A DNA stretch of 64,000 bases from positions 419,102-483,101 of the forward strand of contig SMSO01000025.1 of the NCBI GenBank assembly GCA_004764695.1. Direction: 5' to 3'. Numbering within the stretch: position 1 is the stretch's first letter; each line of letters starts with the position of its first letter. The notes beneath the pieces are model-generated. The model was not told where the DNA came from. It did no database searches and saw nothing but the letters and a program-made list of their open reading frames with translations. A program made the position numbers and the translations under genes. Shown piece after piece: positions 54,104 through 63,673 of the stretch. The DNA is from Schizochytrium sp. TIO01. Taxonomy: Eukaryota > Sar > Bigyra > Thraustochytrida > Thraustochytriidae.

Positions 54104-56500
54104 ATGCGGCGCATTGGCACTCACAGGGGCTCAGAAGAGCAGGCGGTCGCGCCAAAGTTGTCGCTTGCTGCAAATGGCGCGGCATCGCGGCATGGCAGTG
54201 CCAGATGGGGCTCGCAAAGGAGGCTCGTGACCGCTGCTGCGATTGTCTTTTGCTGCTTCGTGGCAGTACTGCTTCTCGTGTCTAGGGACGTCGGGACTAT
54301 GCAGCGAAAACAAGAGTTAGCTCTGCTAGATGTTGTCGAAACCTCCGTTGAAAGCGTGGAGCGTGAACTCAGCAGGGACCAGAACTCGAACTTGTTGGAT
54401 TCCAAGACTGACTCGAAAGTAGATACAACGAGCTCTGATGATTTGTCAAGTTTAAAGAATTCTGCGGTGCCTGCTAACGTTGATACTTGGAAAGGTGAGT
54501 CCGAGCTTACCCGTACAATGACCTTGCCGCTGAAGACACCACCTGAAAGTGGAACACGGAGTGCCAGTCACGAAGAAATCTCTGAAGGTGACACCACAAG
54601 CGAAAATGACATTACAAGTGGGGACTCTGCGAGTGATAATTTCTCTAATCGAGATGATGGCCGAAATGATGATCGTGAGGAGAGAAAAGAGGTAACACTC
54701 AGAGGTGGCGCTGAAAATGGAAAATCTGTCAGTCGTGGAGGCCAAGCGTACAGCAACAAGAGTGGCCGCCATCATCCGCAACAACAGCATCTACAGAAAC
54801 GTGACAAGTTTGAGCTACGTAAATACGGTAGTGATGATAAGCTAAGCTCCGGGAACGCAGTGGCAAAACGTGGCCAAAAGGGCTCAGTGCATCCCAGAAA
54901 GTCTTATATCGAGCTGCTAAAACGCGTATTTGCGGCTTCAGTGTGCTATGCAGACGCATTGGAGGGATCCCAACGCTTAGATCTTAAACAGATTTGTTGC
55001 GATGTGTCAGTGAAGCCCCCTTTTGATGATTCCAAGGAAACGGAGGAGGAGAAAGTCTCTATGTGCCTACCAGGACTTGTCGTCATGGGTGCGCAAAAGG
55101 GCGGAACCACCGCGCTGCACTCGTATCTTATGCTGCATCCACAACTCATCCCGCCACGAAAGAAGGAGCTCCATATTTTTGATATTGACCGAAATTTTCA
55201 GGCTTGGCCTGCCCAGCTAAAAACAGCCTTCATACGTTCCGCACCGTCAAAATCCTTACTTGGTAAACTAGCTACCAAGTCGACGTCATCCGTCACCCCG
55301 GGTATTGCCTTTGAATCAACCCCTTCATATATAGCTTCCACCTTAGCTTGTGAGCGTATGTCGACCTTCCTTTCCCCTTGGACAGTTTATGTTGTTATTT
55401 TGCGAGATCCTGTAAAACGATTGTGGTCTGAGTTCAACATGAAAGCTCGTCGTATGCAAAATCAAGACATGACATTGAGGAGTATCGTGGATAATGTTGA
55501 TCAACTTGATTCGTGTTTTATCAACAAACTAGAAGAAGGAGATGATAAGAGCGCATGGATCAACGCCTGTCGCGGAGATCTTCGTCGCGTACTCAAGGGT
55601 AGCTCCTCCAAAATCTCTCAGGTCATTCGCATCCTCTCCAAGCCAGATTATGCTCCCAAATTCTATGAACGCTGCCTCAAGGATGTGGAAGATATGACCT
55701 TTGAAGATTTGCGTGATTGCGCTCGTATAGAAGGTGTACTGCGCGAGAAGCTTCCGGATATCCGTGAAGATATCATAAATGAGCAAAAATTTCTCCAGCC
55801 CTGCATGCAAATCGCTGCAAATAACAAATTTGATGAGTCTCGGAATACAGTGAGCACAGATCTATGGAGCAACGCTGATGACTTATGCGATAAACGCTTG
55901 GAAGAGCAGTTTTGTGCTCACTGTAGCAAGAACCCTAAACCAGCAAAGTGCTGGCAAAGTTGTTGGGACAGCCGCTTCGAAGAAATATCCGCTGCTGCCT
56001 CAGAAATGGGCTGCCAACGCTTGACACGGAATAGTACCTACCCACCACGGAAAATTCGCACTAATTCTGCTTGCGCTGGAAAGCTTTGTTCTTGTTATCC
56101 TGCAGCTGCGAACATGGCTGATATCTCGAAGAACTTTTTATGGCGCGGTCTTTACTATCCGCAAGTTGAGCAATGTCTGCGCTATATTCCTCGTTCTCAA
56201 ATTATCTTCCTCGACAACGATGACTTGCGCCGCAACCCACAAGATGCTCTCCACCAGATTACACATAAGCTAGGCGTCTCTTCCCTACCTTATGGAGACA
56301 CTGGTTATACTTATAAAGATGCAGAGGAGGAATTTAACCGCAAATACCCAGAATTCGGAACGACAACAGGCTGGTCTGCTGAAGGTCTATCCTCTTTGCC
56401 GATGCCCGGAGATATTGAACTCATGCTTAGACAGTTCTATAGCAAACCAAACAAGTTGCTCTTCAAACTCATTGGACGGAACTTCGACCATTGGCTGTAA
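54104..56500 (+). CDS. PAPS-dependent sulfotransferase, type II membrane (heparan/carbohydrate sulfotransferase-like)
   Basis: This 798-residue enzyme would move sulfate from PAPS to a carbohydrate or protein in the Golgi lumen. It has a basic N-tail (1-40), a signal-anchor helix (41-60), a long polar stem rich in Ser/Asp/Glu/Lys (65-270) and then a sulfotransferase domain. The 5'-phosphosulfate loop is LVVMGAQKGGTTALHSY (325-341, K332). KKELHIFD (353-360) carries the probable catalytic Glu355, and FESTPSYI (403-410) resembles the family EK[ST]PxY element. The 3'-phosphate site is VYVVILRDPVKRLWSEF (428-444; R434 and S442). The C-terminal GLYYPQVEQCLRYI (682-695) and IIFLDNDDLRRNPQDAL (700-716) fit the family end. 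Between them is an unusual insert, about 455-670, rich in cysteine. An in-frame TGA lies 21 bases upstream, supporting the ATG at 54104. Family is secure; acceptor unknown. Confidence 0.92.
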   Translation: MRRIGTHRGSEEQAVAPKLSLAANGAASRHGSARWGSQRRLVTAAAIVFCCFVAVLLLVSRDVGTMQRKQELALLDVVETSVESVERELSRDQNSNLLDSKTDSKVDTTSSDDLSSLKNSAVPANVDTWKGESELTRTMTLPLKTPPESGTRSASHEEISEGDTTSENDITSGDSASDNFSNRDDGRNDDREERKEVTLRGGAENGKSVSRGGQAYSNKSGRHHPQQQHLQKRDKFELRKYGSDDKLSSGNAVAKRGQKGSVHPRKSYIELLKRVFAASVCYADALEGSQRLDLKQICCDVSVKPPFDDSKETEEEKVSMCLPGLVVMGAQKGGTTALHSYLMLHPQLIPPRKKELHIFDIDRNFQAWPAQLKTAFIRSAPSKSLLGKLATKSTSSVTPGIAFESTPSYIASTLACERMSTFLSPWTVYVVILRDPVKRLWSEFNMKARRMQNQDMTLRSIVDNVDQLDSCFINKLEEGDDKSAWINACRGDLRRVLKGSSSKISQVIRILSKPDYAPKFYERCLKDVEDMTFEDLRDCARIEGVLREKLPDIREDIINEQKFLQPCMQIAANNKFDESRNTVSTDLWSNADDLCDKRLEEQFCAHCSKNPKPAKCWQSCWDSRFEEISAAASEMGCQRLTRNSTYPPRKIRTNSACAGKLCSCYPAAANMADISKNFLWRGLYYPQVEQCLRYIPRSQIIFLDNDDLRRNPQDALHQITHKLGVSSLPYGDTGYTYKDAEEEFNRKYPEFGTTTGWSAEGLSSLPMPGDIELMLRQFYSKPNKLLFKLIGRNFDHWL

Positions 56501-57469: not shown

Positions 57470-59368
57470 TTACTTGGCAAGGTTGCCGATGTGGTAACGT
57501 TGCAAGAGAGTAGGGACAGTGGACGGGTGTTGGGGTCCGGCGATAGCCTCAGTGGCGTCCTTGCCACCCCAGTTAATGATAGCGTTGTCACCACCCTGGT
57601 GAAGGTCCAAATAAGTGGTCACATCGTAAACCTTGTTCTTGACAATGATCCAAAGAGAATCCTTGGTGTTGTGCTTGGCAACCTGCTCGGCAGTGTACAC
57701 ATTTTTAGCCTCCTCGGCAACATTGCTGGGCTCCTCGATGGCATCATCAGCTGCGGAGGACACAGGCTTGGACAGAACCTTGCGCTCCACCTTGCGCTCA
57801 AGCGAGAGCGGGGTTGCGCGGCGCTTGAAGCGGACCATGTTAGGTCCCTTAGGGGGCACGACCATGGCTTCATAGTCCGGCTCCGGGAATGGAGTTACAA
57901 GCTCGAGCTCATAGGTAGCCAAAATAACTGAAAGGATCGTGCGGACCTGCATGAAAGCAAAGGTCTCACCCATGCAAGTGTGCAATCCAGCACCGAACCC
58001 AATAAAGCTGTACGGCTTGAGCTTAGCGATGTTGAAGTCATCCCAGCGAGAGGGATCAAACTCATCCGGGTTCTCAAAGACCTCCGGGAGTCTCTGTGCA
58101 ATGGCGTTAGAGACCATAGCACGGTGGCCCGCAGGAATGTAAGTGCCGTCCGGCATGGTGATGGGCTTCATGACCTGGCGCATGAGCATGATGAGAGGGG
58201 GGTGCATGCGAATTGCCTCCTTGACAACCTTGTACATTTCAACCTCCTCCTTTACGACATCGTGCGATACCTTGCCGTCCGCAAAGTCACCAGGGGTCTC
58301 CTCGAGCGAGCACATCTCATCAAGCACCTTGTCCATAACCTTGCTACCCTTGCTGCGTTGGTCCTCAAGCAGGAACAGGAGCGACCAGGTGCTCACAATG
58401 GAGGAAGTGTGCTGGCCAGCGAAGAGCGCAGCAAGAATCATTCCTGCGATCTCATCATCAGTGAACTTAGTACCATCAGAGTATGTGAACTCCATAAGAG
58501 TTTTGATCATGTCGTTGCGAGAGGCAGCTGCTTCGGGGTCAGATCTGCGCTTGGCAAGAATACGTCCAAAGAGGGCAGAGATCTCAATACGAGCGTGGTC
58601 GCGGATCTTGTGGGCTTCAATGGGGGCGTTGGGGAAGAACACAGAGAGCGGGGTGAGGCCGTTATCGAGGTGGGCGTAGAGTGTAGACATCTCCTTGAAC
58701 ATCTCGCCACGAATCTCAGGACCCAAAAGCGTAGCACTGGCAGTGTTGATAATGAGTTCAGCGAAGCACTTGTGAAGGTCAATTGTTCCACTCTCACCCC
58801 AGTGGGAGTTCAGGTAGTCCTTCGTCTCCTTGGCAATCATAGGCGGGTAGTTCTTGAGCACGGAAGGCCGCAGAGAACGGCCCAGAGCACGCATCTGTTG
58901 GCGACGCTTCTTGAGCGGGGAGTCATACACGACGCCCTTGCCGAAGATGGGCTTCATGAAACGGTAAGGGCGAGCCTGATCCATCTCCTCGTCGGTGGCC
59001 TCGAAGAAGACCTTGTGGGCGTCGGCACCAATCAGAAAGGTACATTTCTCGGCAACCATGTCGATCGTAAACACGTTTCCGCATTCCTTGTGACCTTTAC
59101 GGACAAATCCAAGAGGATCTGCGGCAAACCCAATAAAGTTGCCGACCACAGGGATGTTTGAGCTGAAGGTTGGGGGCAAGTGGTAGCCGGCAGGAGCCTT
59201 GTCCTTGGTGGCCAGGCGGTAGAGAGTAATGAATGCGGCAGCAGCGACAATAATCACAGCCACAAGGGTTCCAACCCAGCCTCCGACAGTCCAGGCGAAT
59301 CCAAGGGCTCCCGAGGACTCAATCTGAGCGCCAACATCTGCAGCAGAGCAGATCACAGCAGACACCAT
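57470..59368 (-). CDS. CYP51: Sterol 14-alpha-demethylase (CYP51) fused to a cytochrome b5 domain
   Basis: The 632-residue protein is a membrane-anchored P450 with a C-terminal electron-carrier domain. The anchor helix is about 31-50 and a proline-rich hinge (HLPP, 63-66) follows. P450 motifs are YRFMKPIFGKGVVYDSP (135-151, the CYP51 B-C region), the I-helix AGQHTSS (317-323) with the His characteristic of CYP51, EAIR (384-387, ExxR) and FGAGLHTCMG (458-467) with haem thiolate C465. After a linker (516-556) comes a cytochrome b5 domain (557-630): LDLHQGGDN holds haem ligand H590 and GPQHPST holds H614. Their 24-residue spacing equals that of classical b5, although the usual HPGG reads HQGG. 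The enzyme removes the 14-alpha-methyl of lanosterol or obtusifoliol in the ER; the fused b5 would supply electrons. An in-frame TAG lies 12 bases upstream of the ATG. It is divergent from the ankyrin gene. Confidence 0.95.
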   Translation of the reverse strand: MVSAVICSAADVGAQIESSGALGFAWTVGGWVGTLVAVIIVAAAAFITLYRLATKDKAPAGYHLPPTFSSNIPVVGNFIGFAADPLGFVRKGHKECGNVFTIDMVAEKCTFLIGADAHKVFFEATDEEMDQARPYRFMKPIFGKGVVYDSPLKKRRQQMRALGRSLRPSVLKNYPPMIAKETKDYLNSHWGESGTIDLHKCFAELIINTASATLLGPEIRGEMFKEMSTLYAHLDNGLTPLSVFFPNAPIEAHKIRDHARIEISALFGRILAKRRSDPEAAASRNDMIKTLMEFTYSDGTKFTDDEIAGMILAALFAGQHTSSIVSTWSLLFLLEDQRSKGSKVMDKVLDEMCSLEETPGDFADGKVSHDVVKEEVEMYKVVKEAIRMHPPLIMLMRQVMKPITMPDGTYIPAGHRAMVSNAIAQRLPEVFENPDEFDPSRWDDFNIAKLKPYSFIGFGAGLHTCMGETFAFMQVRTILSVILATYELELVTPFPEPDYEAMVVPPKGPNMVRFKRRATPLSLERKVERKVLSKPVSSAADDAIEEPSNVAEEAKNVYTAEQVAKHNTKDSLWIIVKNKVYDVTTYLDLHQGGDNAIINWGGKDATEAIAGPQHPSTVPTLLQRYHIGNLAK

Positions 59369-61452: not shown

Positions 61453-61617
61453 ATGAGTTCTCACATGGACAGCCTCGGCGACGACTCCACAGACTTGGTC
61501 TGCGAGGAATCGGAGTGGCCTTGCGAAGATTGCGAGGCCGGCCATGCGCGGCTTCGGGCTTGGTGGGGAGGACTTAAGCCATGCAAAACCAAGATTTGTT
61601 GGCCCTATGGACGCTAG
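61453..61617 (+). other. Overlapping upstream ORF (54 codons) at the ankyrin gene
   Basis: An ATG at 61453, with a second in-frame ATG at 61465, opens a 54-codon frame that overlaps the ankyrin start at 61544 in another phase and ends at TAG 61615-61617. Its product begins MSSHMDSLGDDSTDLVC and is acidic and Cys-containing. It may be a repressive upstream ORF. Alternatively it may be the true first exon: a GT at 61563 and an AG at 61616-61617 are in matching phase. A third possibility is that transcription starts downstream of it. Confidence 0.35.
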
Positions 61618-63673
61618 CGACGATGTGCTGACGAAATCGCGGGTCGCTAAGGTGCTCCTGGCGAGGAAATCTGGCACGAGCCCAGAGGCCTTTGGGCTTT
61701 CCCAAGAGCCAAGTTTGCTGGTGAGCAATAAACATGATGCATTCGATGATGGAGAACCTGCAACCCAGGTTGTAGAAGACGAGACCAGGCTTGAGGAAGA
61801 TCACCATTCTGAGGGCTCCACTTACTTAGGCCTCACCAACAGTGGGAATGGGGTCCGTTTGCGGAGCACAAAAATCGAAGATGCCCGACTTTCATCATCT
61901 AAATCAGGCACGAGGCTTGTTGATGCAGCATCAAAGATGAAAAAACCTAGACCTCATGTCGTGGAACGACTCAGACGGGCAGAACAGGCAAACATTACTA
62001 GCACTGCCCCTACCATGAAAGTGTACTTTTCAGACAGCGAAGATGAGGACGATGATTTTACACATTTCCGCCGGAGCCCGCATGGAGTCACAAGAGTCCC
62101 CTCATCTAGCGAGTTCCTGCGAACAGAAAGTGAAGAGTTTGTTTACCACACACGAAAGCGGGCAGGTTCGCGAGGTACCTTTCTTGATAGGCGAGACATT
62201 GTCGATGAAGCAGCCGAATTTATACTACGCGAAAACCGATCCCGAGCAATGCACGATTCAAGTTTTAGAAGTGGGGAGTCAAACTCACGAGGTAGCGATG
62301 CAGTAAATGCTATTTATAAAGTTCTGTCGGAGCAGGAACAACGCCACAAGATTGTAGCAACACAACACCAGCAACCAGAACAACATCTACCTCAGCAACA
62401 AAAAGATATATCTCAATTACAACAAATTCAGCAAAGGTATGCATTTGCCCCACAAGTGTCACAGGCTCAACAGCAACGTAATCAGCGAACTGATCGGCAG
62501 GGCATGCATAATTTAAAGCGCCAAGGTATCCCCCTTGCTTCCCCTACTTTACTTGAGTCTGTGGCAGCTTCCCAGGAGCACCTGAATAGATCATTTCGTG
62601 GATTCTGTGTTGATGACAATGCAGATACCCAACGGCTTACCTTTACCCCGTTCTGCCAAGCTTGTGTTGAGGGTAAGTCTGATCTCGTCTCTAGCATTTT
62701 AGACGCGAGTGCAATGTTTCCTGATCGTCTAATTGATGCTAAAAATCATCTTGGACGAACTGCATTACATTGTGTCACTGCTCTACACCGCGGCTCTTTC
62801 CATGCAGCGCACGAAAGTGTCTTGCGAATTCTTCTTCAAGCTGGGGCAAATACCGATGATCGAGATAAAACAGGCTGGACACCCCTTTTCTACGCAGTCC
62901 AAAATGAGCACCGCGCAGCTATTCGGCTCTTGTGTGAGTATGGCGCCAATTTGTACTTGCGTGATCACCCAACGTGGGTCATTGATGCAATGTCTTCACA
63001 AGCGGCCATTACTTTATTGGAGGAGGTTGCAGCTGATGATTGCGATATGACTGACCTTGAATCGTCACGTAATTTATTCACATTGTGCCGGGACCTAGGG
63101 CATACAGCTCTGCTTGAGTACCTTGTGACTTACACTACCATTCGGATCGAATCTCCTACTCGACTTTCATGGGGCTTTCAAGCATTAATGCCAGAAGTAG
63201 ACGACATAGAGGAGAACGTTGTATTGATTCGCTGGAGTGCAATGACAGAGACACAAGACTTTGATGTTTATCTTCACGTGGTGGACACGATAGCTTCCGC
63301 AGCGCAGAACAAATTATCTATCCCACCCTCGTTTAGTATTGATAGAGTCGAAAGTGAGTCTCTGCAGTCTCTCCTCCAACATGCCACGTGCACAATTCAA
63401 CAACGTATCCGTTCTTTGCATCGTTTTCAATTGCAACACGGCGACCAGAATGATGTCAAACGGGATTTGCTCAGTGCATTGCTTGGGATAGCTGATGAGG
63501 GGGGTCCACTGCATCAGCAAGAGACTCGTAGTCGTCGCAATTCTGTGCATTCACAAGGCCAAGGAATGAACTCATCAACAACAACCGCCGGCCCGATGAT
63601 CTCAAAGCCACCCAAACGTATGACCTTGGAGCATATTGGGCCGGGCTATGTCCAACCGAACAAATGCTTCTGA
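61544..63673 (+). CDS. Ankyrin-repeat protein
   Basis: The 709-residue frame encodes a largely disordered N-terminal half followed by ankyrin repeats. Visible parts are an acidic, Ser-rich N-region; an acidic cluster YFSDSEDEDDDF (161-172); a Gln-rich segment (about 274-313); and three ankyrin units at about 367-402, 403-442 (GRTALHCV at 404-411, LLQAGANTDDRD at 430-441) and 443-476 (GWTPLFYAVQNEH, LLCEYGANLYLRD). A mixed alpha/beta C-region (about 505-640) has no family I recognise, and a polar tail follows. Such proteins are protein-binding scaffolds; no enzyme domain is visible. The ATG at 61544 gives the longest clean frame, but an earlier ATG at 61453 opens an overlapping frame. The 3' end is also in doubt: a GT-AG intron at 63618-63684 would skip this stop and add 71 residues to a 763-residue product. 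The upstream region has a TATA-like box and a three-copy 30-bp-phased motif. Confidence 0.8.
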   Translation: MRGFGLGGEDLSHAKPRFVGPMDASDDVLTKSRVAKVLLARKSGTSPEAFGLSQEPSLLVSNKHDAFDDGEPATQVVEDETRLEEDHHSEGSTYLGLTNSGNGVRLRSTKIEDARLSSSKSGTRLVDAASKMKKPRPHVVERLRRAEQANITSTAPTMKVYFSDSEDEDDDFTHFRRSPHGVTRVPSSSEFLRTESEEFVYHTRKRAGSRGTFLDRRDIVDEAAEFILRENRSRAMHDSSFRSGESNSRGSDAVNAIYKVLSEQEQRHKIVATQHQQPEQHLPQQQKDISQLQQIQQRYAFAPQVSQAQQQRNQRTDRQGMHNLKRQGIPLASPTLLESVAASQEHLNRSFRGFCVDDNADTQRLTFTPFCQACVEGKSDLVSSILDASAMFPDRLIDAKNHLGRTALHCVTALHRGSFHAAHESVLRILLQAGANTDDRDKTGWTPLFYAVQNEHRAAIRLLCEYGANLYLRDHPTWVIDAMSSQAAITLLEEVAADDCDMTDLESSRNLFTLCRDLGHTALLEYLVTYTTIRIESPTRLSWGFQALMPEVDDIEENVVLIRWSAMTETQDFDVYLHVVDTIASAAQNKLSIPPSFSIDRVESESLQSLLQHATCTIQQRIRSLHRFQLQHGDQNDVKRDLLSALLGIADEGGPLHQQETRSRRNSVHSQGQGMNSSTTTAGPMISKPPKRMTLEHIGPGYVQPNKCF

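Follow-up and report, generated by a model that had tools for sequence, protein, structure and literature searches.

The sterol enzyme CYP51, which is widely conserved and a target of azoles, consumes two electrons per round in three rounds. The locus described here raises the question of whether such an enzyme and a cytochrome b5 are made as one polypeptide and, if so, what the tethered b5 would do for the reaction. The window, that is, the whole stretch of 64,000 nucleotides analysed from Schizochytrium sp. TIO01, contains on the minus strand at 57470-59368 a frame that runs from ATG to TAA without an internal stop and encodes 632 aa. Along the chain follow, in this order, an N-terminal anchor, a CYP51, a linker of 40 residues and a cytochrome b5 domain:

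57470..59368, minus strand: gene for the CYP51-cytochrome b5 fusion of 632 aa, in one unbroken frame (translation and Pfam)
59213..59299, minus strand: N-terminal hydrophobic anchor, about residues 24-52 (judged by eye from the translation)
57815..59185, minus strand: CYP51 catalytic domain, residues 62-518 (Pfam p450 66-509; best PDB CYP51 match 62-517)
58958..58966, minus strand: Y135-R136-F137 of the B' helix (substrate gate), with a plant-like Phe and an Arg before it (alignment; rule taken from passages of PMC11089504)
58400..58420, minus strand: I-helix motif AGQHTSS, residues 317-323 (translation, alignment)
58208..58219, minus strand: ExxR motif EAIR, residues 384-387 (translation, alignment)
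57968..57997, minus strand: haem-thiolate loop FGAGLHTCMG, residues 458-467, ligand C465 (translation)
57695..57814, minus strand: linker, residues 519-558, without Met (Pfam borders, codon and splice-site scan)
57479..57694, minus strand: cytochrome b5 domain, residues 559-630 (Pfam 1.4e-21; PDB b5 matches)
57590..57601, minus strand: HQGG with the first haem ligand H590 (read from the DNA; alignment to b5 structures)
57527..57529, minus strand: second haem ligand H614, 24 residues after H590 (alignment to b5 structures)

Domain layout and continuity of the chain

Pfam places a P450 domain at residues 66-509 (E 5e-58) and a Cyt-b5 domain at 559-630 (E 1.4e-21, scoring 76.8 bits where the cut-off is 23.7), and with this b5 E-value a chance domain match was rejected. 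As Pfam reports only these two domains, the chain carries no flavin or NAD(P)H domain that would make it a self-sufficient P450-reductase fusion; a C-terminal ferredoxin was not found either, the b5 being there instead. Two residues follow the b5 domain and the chain ends in IGNLAK, so that, unlike in canonical tail-anchored b5, there is no C-terminal membrane anchor. Since the chain begins with a hydrophobic segment and stops at the b5 domain, as judged by eye, the b5 appears to have no anchor of its own.

Much of this architecture had been proposed in a preliminary description, whose coordinates and length agree with the translation of the minus strand from ATG to TAA. The three CYP51 motifs that it named are all present at the residues listed above, and the b5 domain that it placed after a 40-residue linker coincides with the Pfam match. 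The linker range that it gave (58,000-57,660) proved too wide, as it also covers the last part of the P450 domain and the first part of the b5; the linker itself spans 57695-57814.

The continuity of the protein across this linker was addressed by codon usage and by a scan for splice and start sites. Codon log-odds per codon are positive in frame for both the linker (+0.34) and the b5 part (+0.47) and negative in both other forward frames, with one reverse frame of the linker weakly positive (+0.16); third-position GC is 0.66 in the P450 part, 0.68 in the linker and 0.64 in the b5. Sites resembling a splice donor (GTATG or GTGAG) occur four times in the fusion frame, at CDS nt 441, 572, 973 and 1400. 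The last of them, a GTGAG at residue 467, precedes the linker, and neither the linker nor the b5 part contains a strong splice donor of the type GTAAG, GTATG or GTGAG. No methionine is found past residue 511, which leaves the linker and b5 without an ATG of their own; a short product initiated at Met511 is formally possible. An artefact, in which two adjacent genes or exons are read as one or a splice drops the b5, would draw on the GTGAG at nt 1400 and on the existence of intron-bearing genes in this genome, such as a b5 gene (L026) whose intron begins GTAAGT. However, an intron beginning at nt 1400 would also excise the part of the P450 just past the haem cysteine, and the stop-free frame, the lack of strong donors and of a start codon in linker and b5, and the coding-type codons of the linker all argue against this explanation, which we consider hardly credible. 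The single-chain reading of the preliminary description is thus supported by the open frame, the coding-type codons and the donor scan, and by the genome search, in which no other locus matched at CYP51 level. In the neighbourhood of the gene, the adjoining frames are sulfotransferase-like (54104-56500, plus strand) and ankyrin-repeat (61544-63673, plus strand), and no link with sterol synthesis was seen in either.

Identity and probable substrates of the CYP51 part

CYP51 proteins are recognised by the I-helix motif AG(Q/H)HTSS, the ExxR motif and the haem-thiolate signature FxxGxxxCxG, and the P450 part of the fusion has a motif of each of these three classes. Its closest solved relative is the PDB group 6q2c (6q2c/7uwp), with 44% identity over residues 62-517, and the identity of the P450 domain to the Methylococcus CYP51 is 36%. 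With an E-value of 1e-60 or less, 55 distinct PDB sequences match, and every one bears the name CYP51 or sterol 14-demethylase; the nine NCBIfam P450 models that match the fusion are every one under their cut-off. The 6q2c/7uwp group is most likely the Acanthamoeba castellanii enzyme, as 7uwp is discussed within work on A. castellanii in passages of PMC11089504. Unlike the fusion, the solved A. castellanii chain has no b5, and it carries Gln before the Phe of the B' helix where the fusion has Arg.

A six-frame search of the organism's own 64-Mb genome matched the fusion to itself at 1446 bits and to the next best locus at 62.8 bits; such a search ignores introns, and a gene split into many short exons could escape it. 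A spare paralogue was therefore rejected, within the reach of that intron-blind search. Being the sole CYP51-level match, the fusion is probably the working sterol 14-demethylase, as a cell that makes sterols with a single CYP51 would be expected to have a functional one. Other families of sterol steps matched in the genome are a squalene/oxidosqualene cyclase-type (one), ERG4/ERG24 (two) and a sterol methyltransferase C-terminal domain (one).

The substrate gate gives an indication of what the enzyme would accept. According to passages of PMC11089504, Phe at this position of the B' helix is linked to a preference for C4-monomethyl sterols, e.g. obtusifoliol, and an Arg before that Phe, as in Naegleria fowleri, to a looser choice of substrate. 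With Y135-R136-F137, the fusion enzyme therefore probably uses obtusifoliol and also lanosterol. Such dual use would fit the sterols described for Schizochytrium in parts of PMC10174431, where cholesterol and stigmasterol are made and one CYP51 is listed; the words 'cytochrome b5' and 'fused' are absent from the main text of that paper.

Carrying a b5 is not a general habit of the P450s of this genome, a possibility that was rejected by two counts. Of 28 P450 hits, only the CYP51 lies, by coordinates, no further than 10 kb from a b5 hit. Among the tails of 22 P450 loci inspected, two of which score identically while stops make one (L058) unreadable, it is again the CYP51 only that ends in b5. 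Elsewhere, seven P450 hits in at least six frames lie together within about 21 kb (C31:8129811-8150788).

The tethered b5 and the proposed supply of electrons

Histidines past residue 558 are found at 566, 590, 614 and 626. Solved b5 structures, of which 2ibj is the best, match the C-terminal part, and H590 and H614 fall without gaps on both haem ligands of these structures with the canonical spacing of 24, as had been predicted in the preliminary description. The substitution of HQGG for HPGG that it reported can be read directly in the DNA. Among 30 b5 loci of the genome, 27 have HPGG, two HPGS and one, the fusion, HQGG. The same Pro-to-Gln change in the Euglena delta-5 desaturase left 81.7% of the activity (PMC3423564), which indicates that at least one fused b5 can tolerate it; HQGG need not kill the domain and would be compatible with a functional b5. 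Compared with housefly b5, the differences near the haem include Pro to Q591, Phe to I609 and Gly to Q613, and these substitutions could lower haem affinity or shift the potential.

The b5 of the fusion is also poor in acidic residues. In the stretch that starts two residues ahead of the first His and ends at the second His, housefly b5 has eight and the fusion four. Over the whole domain its D+E count of 7 is the joint lowest among 28 b5 domains of the genome, and its net charge is 0, with just two of these domains more positive; the comparison covers 28 of 35 b5 hits, the other seven being L026 and L038, which are split by introns, and five that lack a locus. A similar trait has been described in desaturase b5 domains, which have fewer acidic residues near the haem than free b5 (passages of PMC3423564). 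A tree of 34 short b5 domains, built without plant CB5LP, was unresolved, its bootstrap did not settle and the fusion b5 could not be placed. Four bacterial b5 domains in that tree (L098, L099, L101, L102) have extra residues before the second His that the fusion b5 does not have; these four also read HPT where others read HPG.

Regarding redox partners, the genome encodes a separate diflavin reductase of 692 aa with FMN, FAD and NAD domains in Pfam (L068), nine hits to the b5-reductase-type FAD domain, and further b5 proteins, one of them intron-bearing and apparently free-standing. With these present, the fusion has not replaced the usual partners. Among the other b5 proteins, whose enzyme labels were assigned by eye (the family scan was applied to L009, L068 and L074 only), b5 is joined to desaturases and to acyl-CoA dehydrogenase-, FMN dehydrogenase-, fumarate reductase- and sulphite oxidase-like proteins (L010-L037). 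A 224-aa frame (C31:787459-787953; L009:1477-2148) has two tandem b5 domains and a C-terminal hydrophobic stretch, and eight b5 domains with long polar linkers are spread over adjacent frames of 802, 419 and 196 aa (C13:1643025-1646937, minus strand; L015, L018, L020-L022, L028-L030), as a multi-b5 gene or an array. Additionally, a 512-aa frame (C31:6760241-6760975; L074:586-2121) combines an N-terminal hydrophobic segment, a b5-like domain and b5-reductase FAD and NAD domains. Its b5 region has one Pfam match and, by eye, a second, MAPR-like repeat. It is a second fusion of P450-helper modules in this genome.

We propose, with a probability of roughly 0.6, that the gene provides the cell with its sterol 14-alpha-demethylase, to whose C-terminus a cytochrome b5 is permanently attached, and that the reductase gives the first electron and the tethered b5 the second. 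This reading is supported by the single frame, both Pfam domains, both axial histidines and the presence of a separate reductase. In this proposal, the N-terminal helix would hold the chain on the ER with both haem domains facing the cytosol. NADPH-P450 reductase, from its separate gene, would dock on the basic proximal face and deliver the first electron; the tethered b5, reduced either by the same enzyme or by NADH-b5 reductase, would then supply the second electron, in every one of the three rounds of oxidation, to the oxy-ferrous P450. A transient contact at high local concentration, in which the b5 would make way for the reductase, is suggested by the weak acidic patch of the b5 and by the 40-residue linker. 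Tying electron delivery to sterol demethylation is most likely the function of the fusion.

A further test is offered by the proximal face, which according to passages of PMC9519919 has a low positive charge in the fused bacterial CYP51 and more in eukaryotic CYP51s. In the fusion, the haem bulge has Leu at 462 and Thr at 464 and thus no basic residue, whereas helix C has a charge of +8 against +3 and +6 in two compared CYP51s. The low-charge face expected of fused CYP51s is therefore seen in the bulge and not in helix C, a mixed result that counts in part against the tethered-donor proposal.

Other roles of the b5 were weighed against this one. A b5 reductase might pass both electrons through the tethered b5, so that CYP51 would run without P450 reductase. 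Free b5 usually has too high a potential for donating the first electron, and the separate P450 reductase-type gene and the very basic helix C, which suits reductase docking, further oppose this NADH route. The b5-reductase-type FAD frames of the genome would allow it, and Arabidopsis seeds that lack either ATR1 or CBR1 have more of the CYP51 substrate (passages of PMC13155568); overall we regard it as unlikely. Somewhat less likely still, the b5 could be an allosteric effector or stabiliser without electron transfer. Some P450s are stimulated by haem-free b5 (parts of PMC9539407) and the ligand pocket of the fusion is divergent (HQGG, Phe to Ile), but both axial histidines and the profile match are retained, and a haem site without a use would probably have degenerated. 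Finally, the b5 could serve neighbouring sterol oxidases in a metabolon, besides or instead of its own P450, given that sterol desaturation is also supplied by b5 (PMC9539407, same sections); tethering would favour its own P450, and the genome has other b5 proteins for such tasks, including the tandem b5, which is hydrophobic at its C-terminal end, and the apparently free-standing one. This last role appears improbable, slightly more so than the allosteric one. The tethered b5 as donor of the second electron remains the preferred reading.

Relation to known CYP51 electron partners

The preferred mechanism rests on two parallels, the Arabidopsis CB5LP, with its reversed anchoring, and the bacterial CYP51-ferredoxin fusion. 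The latter is the closest known architecture. Methylococcus capsulatus CYP51fx likewise carries an electron-transfer partner on the CYP51 C-terminus through a linker, of 20 residues there and 40 here (passages of PMC9519919); unlike the present b5, its partner is an iron-sulphur ferredoxin and its host a bacterium. In the same passages, the contacts of the bacterial fusion are transient, efficiency of electron transfer was not gained, and the fusion is argued to aid localisation rather than catalytic efficiency (PMC9519919). The lack of an efficiency gain is a warning that tethering need not speed electron transfer. Among 15 bacterial CYP51 loci, 14 of which reach the C-terminus (L096 ends with its contig), two (L084 and L086) end in what looks by eye like a ferredoxin, and a b5 tail is absent from all 14. 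In one bacterial order, 86 of 145 genomes match query P0001, and among the matches listed none covers both the P450 and the b5; scans of viral contigs gave no relative.

The Arabidopsis system CYP51A2/CB5LP resembles the fusion in that a b5-type carrier for CYP51 is held by an N-terminal anchor and not by a C-terminal tail (passages of PMC13155568). There, Arabidopsis CYP51 is reported to depend on CB5LP as its electron carrier, and b5 to be nonessential for the yeast and animal enzymes. The same sections of PMC13155568 agree with the statement of the preliminary description that eukaryotic CYP51s normally work with separate partners. Unlike the b5 of the fusion, which belongs to the CYP51 chain, CB5LP is a stand-alone b5 with its own N-terminal anchor, reported in those sections of PMC13155568 from plants, including red algae, only. 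The built-in b5 might also be obligate, the demethylase depending on it for each second electron, and would then be a non-plant, independent answer to a b5 requirement of the CB5LP type; this stronger form is doubtful, although possible.

Among other membrane oxidases, b5-fused fatty acid desaturases and hydroxylases also have a covalent b5 (passages of PMC3423564 and PMC8918992), and desaturase b5 domains share with the fusion the low acidity near the haem (PMC3423564); unlike the P450 of the fusion, their catalytic domain is di-iron. The oomycete P450 fusions described in passages of PMC4486971 join a P450 to a peroxidase/dioxygenase rather than to a b5. A natural CYP51-b5 fusion was not found among the papers listed in a limited search of open-licence full-text literature, and examples annotated in databases yet not published may exist. 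A CYP51 with a C-terminal redox partner is thus known in bacteria, and the eukaryotic b5 version appears to be new so far as that literature was searched.

As a natural single chain, a CYP51-b5 fixes both the partner and the stoichiometry, so that point mutants of one protein can show what b5 does in the three reaction steps. The fusion, which probably keeps an electron carrier permanently next to CYP51, would be among eukaryotes what the CYP51-ferredoxin is in bacteria, and would suggest that CYP51 has gained a C-terminal electron carrier on more than one occasion.
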